Shown here: positions 42,191 through 47,401 of the stretch, piece by piece
How the letters are laid out: each line of letters starts with the position of its first letter
How positions within the stretch are numbered: position 1 is the stretch's first letter
Assembly (NCBI GenBank): GCA_947456185.1
Contig: CANGPW010000014.1
Location: forward strand, 1 to 48,569
Origin: Bacteroidota bacterium
Lineage (GTDB): Bacteria > Bacteroidota > Bacteroidia > UKL13-3
Length of the DNA stretch: 48,569 nucleotides
Reading direction: 5' to 3'
Made by a program: the position numbers and the translations under genes
The notes under the pieces: model-generated
Told to the model about the DNA's origin: nothing
Database searches by the model: none
The model's input: the letters and a program-made list of their open reading frames with translations, nothing else

Positions 42191-42664
42191 ATGAGAATAG
42201 GTTTTGGCTTTGATGTACATCAATTACAAGAAGGTAGAGATTTTTGGTTAGGGGGAATTCATATTCCTGCTCAAAAAGGAATACTTGGACATAGCGATGC
42301 CGATGTACTTTTACATGCCATTTGCGATGCCATTTTAGGTTCGCTTGCTTTAGGCGATATTGGCAAACATTTTCCTGATACTGACCAAAATTTTAAAGGA
42401 ATTGATAGCAAAATATTACTCACAAAAGTAATGGAGTTAATCACAGAAAAAGGGTATAAAATTGGAAATATTGATACTACTGTTGTTTGCCAACAACCTA
42501 AAATAATGCCTTATGCTTTGCAAATGCAATCATGTATTGCTAACATTTGTAATATTGAAATTAATGATGTAAGCATCAAAGCAACTACGAATGAAACCAT
42601 GGGTTTTATTGGCCGCGAAGAAGGAATAGTTGCTTATGCTATTGTTTTACTTTTGAAAAAATAA
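42191..42664 (+). CDS. ispF: 2-C-methyl-D-erythritol 2,4-cyclodiphosphate synthase
   Basis: A 157-residue trimeric zinc enzyme of the MEP isoprenoid pathway. FGFDVHQL holds the zinc Asp and His. GHSDADVLLHAICDAILGSLALGDIGKHFPDTD and TTNETMGFIGREEGI are the two conserved blocks. Length is typical. With idi and a UbiA prenyltransferase in the same window, it shows that the organism makes its own isoprenoids by the MEP route. It lies between porV and a pterin dehydratase gene with gaps of 17 and 11 bp, suggesting a three-gene transcript. Confidence 0.96.
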   Translation: MRIGFGFDVHQLQEGRDFWLGGIHIPAQKGILGHSDADVLLHAICDAILGSLALGDIGKHFPDTDQNFKGIDSKILLTKVMELITEKGYKIGNIDTTVVCQQPKIMPYALQMQSCIANICNIEINDVSIKATTNETMGFIGREEGIVAYAIVLLLKK

Positions 42665-42931: not shown

Positions 42932-43642
42932 CTACAGTTCTACTAATTTAAAACCACTTCCATGTATATTTTCAACTGCAAGACTATCATCTTCTTTTAA
43001 TAATTTTCTTACTTTATTAATATATACATCTAAATTTCGGGCAGTATAAAAATCGTTTCTTCCCCAAACATGTAAAAGCATATTTGCCCTTGGCAATAAA
43101 GCATTTTTATTTACTATCATCAATTTTAGGAGCACCGTTTCTGTATTACTTATTTTTTTAGGTGTACCATTAACTGTTATTGAATTATTTACCGTGTCAA
43201 TGACTGTTTTTCCAATGTTAATAATTTCATCTTTTGCGGCTAAATCAGTATCGGGCTTAGAGGTACTGCGTTTTAAAACTGCTTTTATGCGAGCCAGTAA
43301 TTCAGGGGTACTAAATGGTTTAGTTATATATTCATCAGCGCCAATTTCAAATCCTAATAGCTTATCAACTTCAGAATTATTGGCTGTTAAAAAAATAATA
43401 GGTATATGTTGGTCTTTAATTCTTACATGTTTTGCTAATTCAAAACCGCTCATTTTAGGCATGTTTACATCAAAAATACAAAGGTCAAATCGCTCATTAA
43501 TAAAGGAGCTTAAACCTTCTTCACCATCTTTACAGTGCCTAACCGAATACTCTTCTAAGCGTAAGGTTTCTTTCATTAAAAACCCTAAACTTGTTTCGTC
43601 TTCTACTAAAAGTATATGAATTGATTGTGGTTTTATCATCAT
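42932..43642 (-). CDS. OmpR-family response regulator, orphan
   Basis: A 236-residue two-component regulator. Receiver domain 1-125 with acidic pocket (LLVEDE), phospho-acceptor Asp58 (IFDVNMPKMSG), and switch residues in IIFLTAN and EYITKPFS. C-terminal winged-helix DNA-binding domain (about 140-236) with NTETVLLKLMIVNKN and YINKVRKLLKEDDSLAVENIHGSGFKL. No histidine kinase is in the window. It is divergent to the prenyltransferase-polyketide synthase pair, with 142 bp between, so it may regulate that pair, though this is only a positional hint. Either of the two leading Met codons may be the start. Confidence 0.93.
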   Translation of the reverse strand: MMIKPQSIHILLVEDETSLGFLMKETLRLEEYSVRHCKDGEEGLSSFINERFDLCIFDVNMPKMSGFELAKHVRIKDQHIPIIFLTANNSEVDKLLGFEIGADEYITKPFSTPELLARIKAVLKRSTSKPDTDLAAKDEIINIGKTVIDTVNNSITVNGTPKKISNTETVLLKLMIVNKNALLPRANMLLHVWGRNDFYTARNLDVYINKVRKLLKEDDSLAVENIHGSGFKLVEL

Positions 43643-43784: not shown

Positions 43785-44681
43785 TTGTATTTATGCAAAG
43801 TGATACAATATTTTGACAAAAACACCATAAAACTCTTAAGAATTCCTTTTAGTTTTTTTCTAATGCCTGTATTTCTTTTTGCATCGGCATCATTAAACAA
43901 CTTACATATAGTAAATACTATTATTGCTTTTGTTGCATTACATGTTTTTATTTATCCTGCAAGTAATGGTTATAATAGTTATATGGACAAAGATACAGAT
44001 AGTATTGGCGGACTTGAAAAACCTCCTTTACCTACTATAAATTTGTTTTATGTTAGTTTAGTTTTCGATGTCATTGGATTGGTGCTTTGTGGTTTTGTAA
44101 GCTTTGGTTTTGCAGCACTTATAATTTTATATGTATTAGCTTCAAGAGCATATAGTTTTAAAGGAATCCGATTAAAAAAATATCCGATTATTAGTTGGAT
44201 TACCGTTAGCTTTTTTCAAGGAAGTTATTTGTTTTTAGTACTTTTCTTTAACTTAAGCAATAATTTAAAACTAGAACAATTTCCTACTGTTTTGTTCTTT
44301 GTACCTTCCTTATTAATTGGCGCTACTTATCCGCTTTCTCAAGTATACCAACATCAGCAGGATAAAGCTTCGGGCGATAAAACTTTAAGCATTTTGTTAG
44401 GTTATAAAGGTACTTTTATTTTTAGTGCATCACTATTTATTATTGCTACCATTTTGTTTTTTATTCAAACAGCAATACTCACACCAAATATTTTACATTT
44501 TTATTGGTTTCAAGCATTTTTATTTCCCGTTGTAATTTACTTTTTGTGGTGGGCTTTTCAGGTATTTCAAAACAATAAACAGGCAAATTTTAAAAATACC
44601 ATGCGAATGAATATAATATCATCATTGATGTTAACAAGCTATTTTGCTTTAGAAATTATAATTAAACATTGGAATAAATGA
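43785..44681 (+). CDS. UbiA-family prenyltransferase
   Basis: A 298-residue integral membrane enzyme with eight or nine spans that attaches a prenyl chain to an aromatic acceptor. The first Mg-diphosphate motif is N64-xxx-D68-xxx-D72 in NSYMDKDTD; the second is DKASGDKT (193-200). The frame has no ATG at its 5' end: the track start is a TTG at 43785, a GTG lies at 43800, and the first ATG (43863) would delete half of the first span. I keep the TTG with GTG as an alternative. Its stop overlaps the ATG of the type III PKS gene (ATGA), indicating translational coupling and a shared pathway. MenA or UbiA proper is less likely because of this partner. Confidence 0.88.
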   Translation: MYLCKVIQYFDKNTIKLLRIPFSFFLMPVFLFASASLNNLHIVNTIIAFVALHVFIYPASNGYNSYMDKDTDSIGGLEKPPLPTINLFYVSLVFDVIGLVLCGFVSFGFAALIILYVLASRAYSFKGIRLKKYPIISWITVSFFQGSYLFLVLFFNLSNNLKLEQFPTVLFFVPSLLIGATYPLSQVYQHQQDKASGDKTLSILLGYKGTFIFSASLFIIATILFFIQTAILTPNILHFYWFQAFLFPVVIYFLWWAFQVFQNNKQANFKNTMRMNIISSLMLTSYFALEIIIKHWNK

Positions 44682-45757
44682 GCTTTATAAATAAAATAGG
44701 AATTGCTGATGCTCCTTTTAAAATGAATCAATTAGATGTGTCTCATTTTATGCAAAACTTTTATGAAATTTCTGATAATGAAAAACGTAAAATTGGATTA
44801 ATGTATGATCGTTCAGGAATTCAAACTCGTTACAGCGCCATACCAGATTATCATTTAAATTTTAAACAAAAACAACTTTTGCCTTCCAATTTAAATGACG
44901 TTTTCCCTGGCATAAATAAGCGAATGGAATTGTTTTTTAAAGTGGCTCCGCCAATGTGTTTACAAGCTATACATAACTGTATAAACGATGAAAATGAATT
45001 GCAAAGCATTACCCACTTAATAACCGTTAGTTGTACTGGAATGGCTGCTCCTGGGTTAGATTTAATAGTAATGGAGCAGTTAAATTTGCCTAATAATACA
45101 CACAGAACTTCTGTAAATTTTATGGGTTGTTATGCGGTTTTTCATGCGTTAAAAATGGCTGATGCTTTTTGCAAAGCAAATCCTAAAAATAAAGTGCTAA
45201 TTGTATCGGTAGAACTTTGTACGCTACATTTTCAAAATACTTTTTCAATGGAAAATTTGGCTGCGAATTTACTATTTGCCGATGGTGCAGCCGCTTGTAT
45301 AGTTAGCAATGAAAATACATTTGAAAATGCCATTGAATTAAATTCTTTTTTCAGCCAAGTGCTTTTTAATGGTAAAAACGACATGGCGTGGCATATTTCC
45401 GATTCAGGTTTTCTAATGACTTTAAGTGCTTTTATTCCCCAATTAATTGAAAGTGGAATTGGAAATTTATTGGAAGGAATTTTGCTTGACACAAAACTTA
45501 ATAAAGCAGCTATTCAAAACTGGGCCATTCATCCTGGAGGACGAAAAATAGTTGAAACCATTCAAAAAGAATTGAATCTCACCAATGAAAATGTGGCGAC
45601 TTCGTTTAATATATTAAAAAATTATGGGAACATGAGTTCAGCCACCATACTTTTTGTGTTGCATAAAATGCAAACCGAAAAAAGAAAAGGGAATGTTTTT
45701 GCTTGTGGTTTTGGGCCTGGATTAACTTTAGAAACTTTTATTGGAAGTTTTAATTAA
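44678..45757 (+). CDS. Type III polyketide synthase (chalcone synthase superfamily)
   Basis: A 359-residue homodimeric enzyme that extends an acyl-CoA starter with malonyl-CoA and cyclises the product. The Cys-His-Asn triad is complete: Cys119 in ITVSCTGMAAPG, His285 in NWAIHPGGRK, and Asn318 in NYGNMSSATI. The C-terminal GFGPGLTLE loop is typical. Length is close to bacterial members such as alkylresorcinol or pyrone synthases. It is translationally coupled to the UbiA prenyltransferase gene, so its product is a likely prenyl acceptor, or vice versa. No methyltransferase or monooxygenase gene, which often accompanies such synthases in Bacteroidota, follows; the next gene is an unrelated exported protein. 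Confidence 0.95.
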   Translation: MSFINKIGIADAPFKMNQLDVSHFMQNFYEISDNEKRKIGLMYDRSGIQTRYSAIPDYHLNFKQKQLLPSNLNDVFPGINKRMELFFKVAPPMCLQAIHNCINDENELQSITHLITVSCTGMAAPGLDLIVMEQLNLPNNTHRTSVNFMGCYAVFHALKMADAFCKANPKNKVLIVSVELCTLHFQNTFSMENLAANLLFADGAAACIVSNENTFENAIELNSFFSQVLFNGKNDMAWHISDSGFLMTLSAFIPQLIESGIGNLLEGILLDTKLNKAAIQNWAIHPGGRKIVETIQKELNLTNENVATSFNILKNYGNMSSATILFVLHKMQTEKRKGNVFACGFGPGLTLETFIGSFN

Positions 45758-45880: not shown

Positions 45881-47401
45881 ATGAAAAAGAACTTACTAAA
45901 TTTATTTACGCTATTAGCTTTTAGTGCTATTTGCTTCAATGCATCTGCTCAAAAACGCTATGTTGATGAAATTTTTGCTAATGTAGTGAAAACAGGAAAT
46001 ATTGAGTACGATAGTAATCGTGCCATCAATATTTTTCCGCCTAACACTCCTCCTATTATTACTGTTAAATTGCGTTGCGATATTTACCAACCAGAAGGTG
46101 ATACTGCTACCAAAAGACCTTTAATTATTTTAGCTTCTACTGGAAGTTATTTACCTGCTATCATTAATCAACAACCTACTGGAAACAAAGATGATAGCTC
46201 AATTGTAGAATTAGCTAACCGTTTAACAAAACGTGGCTATGTAGTGATGGCGGTAAATTACCGTTTAGGTTGGAATCCATCTACAACTATTCAGGCTCAA
46301 GCAACGGAGCAATTAATTAAAGCAACTTACCGCGCCATTCAAGATGTGCGCAATGCCATTCGTTTCATGAGAGTAAATGCTGAAACTTATAAAATTGATA
46401 CTTCTAAAATTGTAGTTGGTGGTCAAGGTACTGGTGGTTATGTAGCTTTAGGATTAGCTGCAGTTGACAAAAGAAGTGAAATTGAAGCTAAGGTAAAATT
46501 CCAAAGAGGAGATTTTACTCCGATGGTTAGTGTAGATACATTAGGCGATTGGAATGGAATTGGGGGAGCATCTTTCTTTAATTATGGTGGCGATGCCAAT
46601 GTATCAGGAAACGCTCACATGGTATTTAACTATGGTGGCGCTATGGGCGATTCAAGCTGGATGGATGCTAGTACTTTACCTATTGTTGGTATGCATTGCC
46701 CTACTGATTATTTTGCTCCTTTTAAAACTGGAAACGTAATTGTTCCTACTACTGGTGTTACGGTAATTAACAGTGCTTCAGGTGCAGGTGCGGTTATTCC
46801 TTATGCAAATAGCTTAGGAATAAATGATAAAATTAATGCTTACAATTATAACGATGCTATTTCTACAAGAGCATTAGCCATTTCTAATGGTATCAAAAAC
46901 TTATATCCATTTATTTCAAGTTTCCCTGCTGAAGGTTCTCCTTGGGAATGGTGGGATAGACCAACTATTCAAGCCAATAATACTTATGGTTTGGGAACTG
47001 GTAGAAATGCTGATTCATTAGCTATGAAAACTAATCCGTATATGAGTGCTGCACGTGCAAAAGCTTATATTGATACCATAGCTCAATTTATTAGCCCGCG
47101 TATTGCGGTTCAGTTTGGTTTCCTTTCAAATGTAAGTGTTACTGAAGTAAACATGAGCAATTACTTAGGATTATTCCCTAACCCAGCAAAAGAAAACGTA
47201 ACAATTAGCATGGATAAGAATCAAGCTACAATCAGTGAAATCAATTTATTTGATATTACTGGTAAGGTTTTGGTTTCAAACTCTGGTATTTCAACTCATG
47301 AGTTTATTTTAAACACTGAAAACTTGACTAAAGGTATTTATTTGGTGAATGTAAAATTAGCAAATGGTGCAAGTGCAACTAAGCGTTTAGCTGTTCAATA
47401 A
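45881..47401 (+). CDS. T9SS-exported alpha/beta-hydrolase-fold protein lacking the nucleophile serine
   Basis: A 506-residue secreted protein. Signal peptide 1-24 (ending ASAQ), alpha/beta hydrolase domain about 60-390, and a C-terminal T9SS type A sorting domain from about 430 (LGLFPNPAKENVTI, INLFDITGKVL, LTKGIYLVNVKLANG, KRLAVQ). In the hydrolase domain VVMAVNYRLGW precedes an RNAIRFMR helix, and the nucleophile elbow reads GQGTG (181-185) where carboxylesterases have GxSxG, so the serine is replaced by Gly183. NYGGAMGDSSWMD and IVGMHCPTDYFAPF follow, as in the family. It is either inactive as an esterase or uses another residue; it may bind ligand or carbohydrate. PorV, encoded upstream, is part of its export route. 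Confidence 0.88.
   Translation: MKKNLLNLFTLLAFSAICFNASAQKRYVDEIFANVVKTGNIEYDSNRAINIFPPNTPPIITVKLRCDIYQPEGDTATKRPLIILASTGSYLPAIINQQPTGNKDDSSIVELANRLTKRGYVVMAVNYRLGWNPSTTIQAQATEQLIKATYRAIQDVRNAIRFMRVNAETYKIDTSKIVVGGQGTGGYVALGLAAVDKRSEIEAKVKFQRGDFTPMVSVDTLGDWNGIGGASFFNYGGDANVSGNAHMVFNYGGAMGDSSWMDASTLPIVGMHCPTDYFAPFKTGNVIVPTTGVTVINSASGAGAVIPYANSLGINDKINAYNYNDAISTRALAISNGIKNLYPFISSFPAEGSPWEWWDRPTIQANNTYGLGTGRNADSLAMKTNPYMSAARAKAYIDTIAQFISPRIAVQFGFLSNVSVTEVNMSNYLGLFPNPAKENVTISMDKNQATISEINLFDITGKVLVSNSGISTHEFILNTENLTKGIYLVNVKLANGASATKRLAVQ

Follow-up and report, generated by a model that had tools for sequence, protein, structure and literature searches.

The window analysed here is a stretch of 48,569 nucleotides, contig CANGPW010000014.1 of assembly GCA_947456185.1, from a bacterium of the Bacteroidota lineage UKL13-3. 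Two adjoining genes in it encode a membrane prenyltransferase of the UbiA superfamily and a type III polyketide synthase (PKS), and the features of the locus are:

42,932–43,642, minus strand: OmpR-family response regulator, divergent neighbour of ubiA (PF00072 and PF00486)
43,800–44,681, plus strand: UbiA-superfamily membrane prenyltransferase of a clade linked to type III PKSs (PF01040, tree, AF2 fold, start comparison, dN/dS)
44,678–44,681, plus strand: ATGA start/stop overlap of the UbiA and PKS genes (the same ATGA, or TTGA, in relatives)
44,678–45,757, plus strand: type III PKS of 359 aa with Cys151, His285 and Asn318 (PF00195/PF02797, PDB relatives, fold, dN/dS)
45,881–47,401, plus strand: secreted (T9SS-sorted) alpha/beta-hydrolase (BD-FAE and Por_Secre_tail)

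The reading frames of the pair lie on the same strand, at the coordinates given by the first-pass annotation of the sequence, with a 4-bp ATGA overlap that would couple their translation. Either ATGA or TTGA joins the two genes in close relatives and also in several distant ones. Only the beginning of ubiA has to be corrected; its frame and end stand, but nothing corresponds to the proposed TTG start at 43,785 in G333 and G334 when start codons are compared across the genus, whereas the GTG at 43,800 is kept in 7 of 7 genus members. The start is therefore probably this GTG, which gives a protein of 293 aa. Comparisons with relatives gave dN/dS values of 0.16–0.20 for the UbiA and 0.09–0.14 for the PKS, and both are for that reason to be regarded as real genes under selection.

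The PKS matches PF00195 with 80.9 bits and PF02797 with 82.9 bits (cut-off 27), and its relatives in the PDB are Steely1 and PKS18. Its AlphaFold model has the expected fold (pLDDT 85.9), with Ectocarpus PKS-I, PKS18 and a PKS of M. marinum as the best fold matches. His285 and Asn318 of the catalytic triad had been recognised correctly from the start, but the Cys119 named with them sits in VSCTG and is a different conserved cysteine. The nucleophile is Cys151, found in NFMGC (NFMGCYAV), and Cys151, His285 and Asn318 are invariant across 10 homologues. Cys181 aligns with Cys205 of PKS18, a residue which we take to line the long acyl tunnel of that enzyme, and the match is consistent with a long acyl starter for the PKS of the window.

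The UbiA protein scores 70 bits against PF01040 (cut-off 34.2) and its AlphaFold (AF2) model has the expected fold, with a pLDDT of 88.6. DGGGP synthase, the UbiA of A. fulgidus and UBIAD1 are the best fold matches of the model in the PDB, and a phmmer search of the PDB with the sequence gave no match. The letters of the window fit the NxxxDxxxD motif that had been proposed for it, but the last Asp of that pattern is not conserved in the alignment of the clade; the first Asp-rich motif reads NSYMDKD in the window and N-S-x-x-D-x-D clade-wide. The proposed DxxxxD (DKASGD) has to be given up as a conserved motif, its second Asp often being Val in the clade. The second metal-binding motif is YP(L/M/I)(T/S)Q(V/I)YQHxxDxxxG in nearly all clade members, and its YQHxxDxxxG part aligns with NNIRDIDSDxxAG of MenA and with IKDMEDLxGD of DGGGPS-like proteins. 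One Asp is kept in this second motif, and a Gln stands at the position of an Asp in MenA and the DGGGPS-like proteins.

The linkage of the two genes is conserved near and far, as the first-pass proposal of a prenylated polyketide locus implied. The window's order consists of one family of 64 genomes, and with PKS genes counted at 380 bits or more, 31 of the 64 have one. The UbiA gene directly adjoins the PKS gene in all 31, which excludes that the two are chance neighbours. A wider survey drew 297 Bacteroidota genomes, and among the best 20 PKS loci after the window's own, a UbiA of the clade lies within 6 kb of the PKS at 15, many of these also with a methyltransferase (MT) and a flavoenzyme. 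Three Chitinophagaceae loci (L009, L010, L013) contain the complete run UbiA-PKS-methyltransferase-flavoenzyme, and two more (L011, L012) have this order but run off the end of the contig. The first-pass annotation was right to expect a methyltransferase and a flavin oxidase in related Bacteroidota clusters. Relatives of the UbiA were not found on the plasmids searched. Many distant PKS relatives in other Bacteroidota families (L072–L110) are followed by a divergent methyltransferase (40–80 bits) and have no UbiA nearby.

As these two tailoring genes do not lie beside the pair, it had first been described as a minimal locus with perhaps a simpler product, or with tailoring genes elsewhere. It is the second alternative that describes the genome. 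Searches with profiles that were built without the two genes in question located them on other contigs:

Contig C49, 4,489–5,196: class I SAM methyltransferase (profile search, 255 bits)
Contig C6, 23,438–24,565: geranylgeranyl-reductase/hydroxylase-like flavoenzyme (profile search, 476 bits)

All four proteins, the type III PKS, the MT, the flavoenzyme and the UbiA, are encoded in the window's genome, spread over contigs C14, C49 and C6; a single contiguous cluster is absent there and present in relatives. The 31 PKS genomes can be divided by layout into nine with a contiguous cluster, 14 with the UbiA-PKS pair at one site and the MT-flavoenzyme pair at another (2+2), seven, making up the window's sub-clade, with the pair and the two other genes at three sites (2+1+1), and one with the pair only. 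The last one, G310, is 81% complete, and neither MT nor flavoenzyme was detected in it. An assembly artefact as the cause of the splits is ruled out by the sister genome G334, where the three pieces lie on one contig of 608 kb, at 331, 453 and 522 kb and 70–200 kb from one another, and by G309, where the split pieces lie within large contigs. In the genomes with a completeness of 90% or more, all 26 that contain the PKS also have MT and flavoenzyme, against 0 of the 20 without it; the unlinked layouts alone give 18 of 18 against 0 of 20, in both cases uncorrected for ancestry. With both tailoring genes in the genome, and with such a co-occurrence in near-complete relatives, neither the minimal locus nor the simpler product is upheld. 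The dN/dS values of all four pathway genes fall within 0.08–0.20, and all four are under purifying selection.

The relocated MT and flavoenzyme genes have flanks that are conserved within the genus. The flavoenzyme gene on C6 (near position 7433 of L051, G000) starts a few bases from the stop codon of a gene for a large secreted protein of the gliding/T9SS type; a dapB-like gene follows it, and these neighbours are kept across the genus.

The surroundings of the pair say something about how the pathway was broken up. The response regulator lies divergently next to ubiA in 27 genomes of the family, and in 25 genomes, which include contiguous as well as 2+2 and 2+1+1 layouts, the UbiA-PKS pair adjoins this same regulator, which indicates that the pair occupies the ancestral site. 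The regulator is also found in genomes that lack the cluster; it is therefore to be seen as a marker of the ancestral site, and a role as dedicated regulator is not supported. With the four proteins concatenated, a tree made with a quick method places all 2+1+1 genomes in one clade (support 100), whose sister group consists of the 13 genomes of genus g142 with the 2+2 layout (98); the contiguous layouts fall outside both. A further 2+2 split, separate from this one, is that of G353. The simplest history is that the MT-flavoenzyme half was lost from the ancestral site first and that MT and flavoenzyme would then have separated from each other, from four genes together to 2+2 and to 2+1+1. Two members of the window's own genus, G332 (L203) and G340 (L205), have contiguous clusters that are close to that of G346, which belongs to another genus, and that lie away from the regulator, which suggests horizontal replacement.

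Downstream of the pair, the alpha/beta-hydrolase follows in the genus at the place where relatives have MT and flavoenzyme. Six relatives from the genus have it next to the pair as well, with 64–99% identity, and we do not consider it part of the pathway. A few genes upstream of ubiA, at 42,191–42,664, there is by eye an ispF-like gene, of the MEP isoprenoid pathway; it is found near ubiA only in the closest relatives and its position is probably a coincidence.

Some genomes have kept the UbiA without the PKS. Six genomes of genus g153 have a UbiA gene beside the regulator and no PKS, and motif 1 (NxxxDxD) is lost in five of these six solo proteins (L236–L240, from G354, G349, G357, G351 and G355), the sixth being too divergent for the motif to be judged. 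Judging from these sequences, the prenyltransferase site appears to decay once the PKS is gone. As the solo UbiAs of g153 form one clade (96), the motif may have been lost only once. Two further solo UbiAs, L206 in G305 and L208 at one locus of G297, also lie beside the regulator with no PKS nearby and have motifs that look intact, so the protein may have another role as well.

The gene set, its linkage and co-occurrence, the family memberships and the selection are directly established for this pathway, and we infer the starter, the type of ring, the prenyl donor and the order of the steps. The pair is in our opinion probably the residual core of a four-gene pathway of UbiA, type III PKS, MT and flavoenzyme, of which the last two genes have moved, and its product would be a prenylated, methylated and oxidised lipid of the alkylresorcinol type, similar to those of the agq cluster. 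The PKS would use a long-chain fatty acyl starter and malonyl-CoA to form a ring of the alkylresorcinol (or alkylpyrone) type, the methyltransferase would methylate this ring, and the flavoenzyme would oxidise it or else reduce the prenyl chain. The membrane-bound UbiA would prenylate the ring, so that the end product would be a phenolic or quinone lipid with a prenyl group. A long-chain alkylresorcinol-type ring that is methylated, oxidised and prenylated is what we propose because of known systems that combine MT, oxidoreductase and type III PKS, because of agq and because of the alignment of Cys181 with Cys205. Judged by its similarity to agq, the prenylated polyketide lipid of the first-pass annotation is the interpretation to be preferred, with a product deduced from genes.

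The flavoenzyme may reduce the prenyl chain instead of oxidising the ring, since its best model is that of the geranylgeranyl reductase family, although at 99–109 bits it stays under the cut-off of 158.8, and since the agq product is dihydrogeranylated. This could be taken further, with a UbiA that prenylates an acceptor unrelated to the PKS, for instance glycerol phosphate or a sugar phosphate, and a polyketide that is a separate product or is joined later. A second motif unlike that of the other UbiA enzymes in the genome, and the existence of solo UbiA loci, would also fit with this, but the adjacency of UbiA and PKS in every one of the 31 genomes and the loss of the catalytic motif in a lineage without PKS argue against it, and we regard such an acceptor as unlikely. 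That the pair alone is a minimal pathway, where the UbiA prenylates an alkylresorcinol or pyrone made by the PKS and the distant MT and flavoenzyme serve others, could be read from the window's genus, where no more than these two genes have remained side by side, and from the incomplete G310. The strict co-occurrence of all four genes, which holds for unlinked layouts too, and the purifying selection that still acts on the relocated genes make this explanation rather improbable.

The genome of the window has five UbiA-superfamily genes. Besides the UbiA of the pair these are a heme O synthase (CyoE, L001, over the cut-off of TIGR01473), a MenA (L002, over the cut-off of TIGR00751), a DGGGPS-like protein (L003) and a fifth gene, L005. 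Against NCBIfam models the UbiA of the window reaches at most 42 bits, far below every cut-off, and for the DGGGPS-type models 28–42 bits, where the cut-offs are 269–296. A tree of 86 UbiA proteins, made with a quick method and having some long branches, puts the PKS-linked proteins, their solo derivatives and two further members in one clade with an SH-aLRT of 100, apart from the CyoE, MenA and DGGGPS-like groups. Clustering with MenA or with heme O synthases, which had been named as what would speak against the proposal, was accordingly not seen. Four identities were considered and rejected: MenA (only 19–23 bits for the PRK06080 models, and a position outside the MenA clade, the genome's MenA being L002), heme O synthase (no match to TIGR01473 and a position outside the CyoE clade, L001 being the CyoE), EboC/Ubi-297 (no match to NF035940, and near neighbours that are not ebo genes) and a DGGGPS-like enzyme (scores far under the NCBIfam cut-offs and a separate clade). 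It is very improbable that the UbiA serves primary metabolism (menaquinone, heme O or an archaeal-type lipid) and owes its place next to the PKS to an accident of history, as its weak best NCBIfam matches of DGGGPS type and the DGGGPS structures among its top fold matches might suggest, against a separate MenA, CyoE and DGGGPS-like protein in the same genome, a distinct clade and an adjacency to PKS genes that extends across families.

A more far-reaching idea, which we put forward tentatively and as a possibility below even chances, is that the PKS-linked UbiAs are a separate subfamily, with a second motif rebuilt by the exchange of Asp for Gln and dedicated to polyketide phenols, and that the family amounts to a natural experiment: a pathway of four genes was dismantled step by step while UbiA and PKS were kept together, possibly because a lipophilic intermediate passes between them at the membrane.

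From the pathway one would expect Bacteroidota to make prenylated phenolic lipids of a class that is uncharacterised; in the literature searched we found no characterised product for type III PKSs of this kind from the phylum. Genome mining that is based on clusters would report a pathway broken up in this way as a locus of two genes. The series of splits, from four genes to 2+2 and 2+1+1 with an unbroken co-occurrence, identifies the missing tailoring enzymes, and it makes it possible to test why UbiA and PKS alone remain adjacent.

The UbiA-PKS pair is real, conserved and functionally coherent, and is a variant of a pathway type that is already known. No characterised Bacteroidota cluster with UbiA and type III PKS was found in the literature searched, and papers beyond it could exist. 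Ubi-297/EboC of marine Flavobacteria (PMC9235831) is, like the UbiA of the window, a Bacteroidota member of the superfamily whose natural substrate is unassigned; it belongs to an ebo cluster and does not lie by a type III PKS, and the UbiA of the window fails the EboC model. In Planctomycetota, operons of MT, flavin oxidoreductase and type III PKS are responsible for alkylresorcinol lipids, and in cyanobacteria such operons make the hierridins (PMC10896814). The planctomycetal operon and the cyanobacterial hidABC combine, as here, a PKS with an MT and a flavin oxidoreductase and produce long-chain alkylresorcinols, but as described they have no UbiA and the order is MT-oxidoreductase-PKS (PMC10896814). 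Plasmids of Psychrobacter (L250) and Deinococcus radiodurans (L251) encode type III PKSs with about 39% identity that have an MT and an FAD oxidoreductase as neighbours, in the order PKS-MT-FAD. Unlike the window, the part of these plasmids that was examined has no gene annotated as UbiA. The agq cluster of Actinoplanes missouriensis is reported to make alkyl-O-dihydrogeranyl-methoxyhydroquinones (Awakawa et al. 2011, as cited in PMC3227686 and PMC10896814); the alkylresorcinols of AgqA are described as prenylated and hydroxylated in that pathway (PMC10896814), and AgqD (printed AqgD) as a UbiA-like O-prenyltransferase (PMC3227686). By gene content and these published statements, agq resembles the system of the window in its type III PKS (AgqA), its UbiA-like O-prenyltransferase (AgqD) and its methylated product, and differs in that it belongs to another phylum, whereas the genes of the window's genome are distributed over three sites, with those for UbiA and PKS overlapping.
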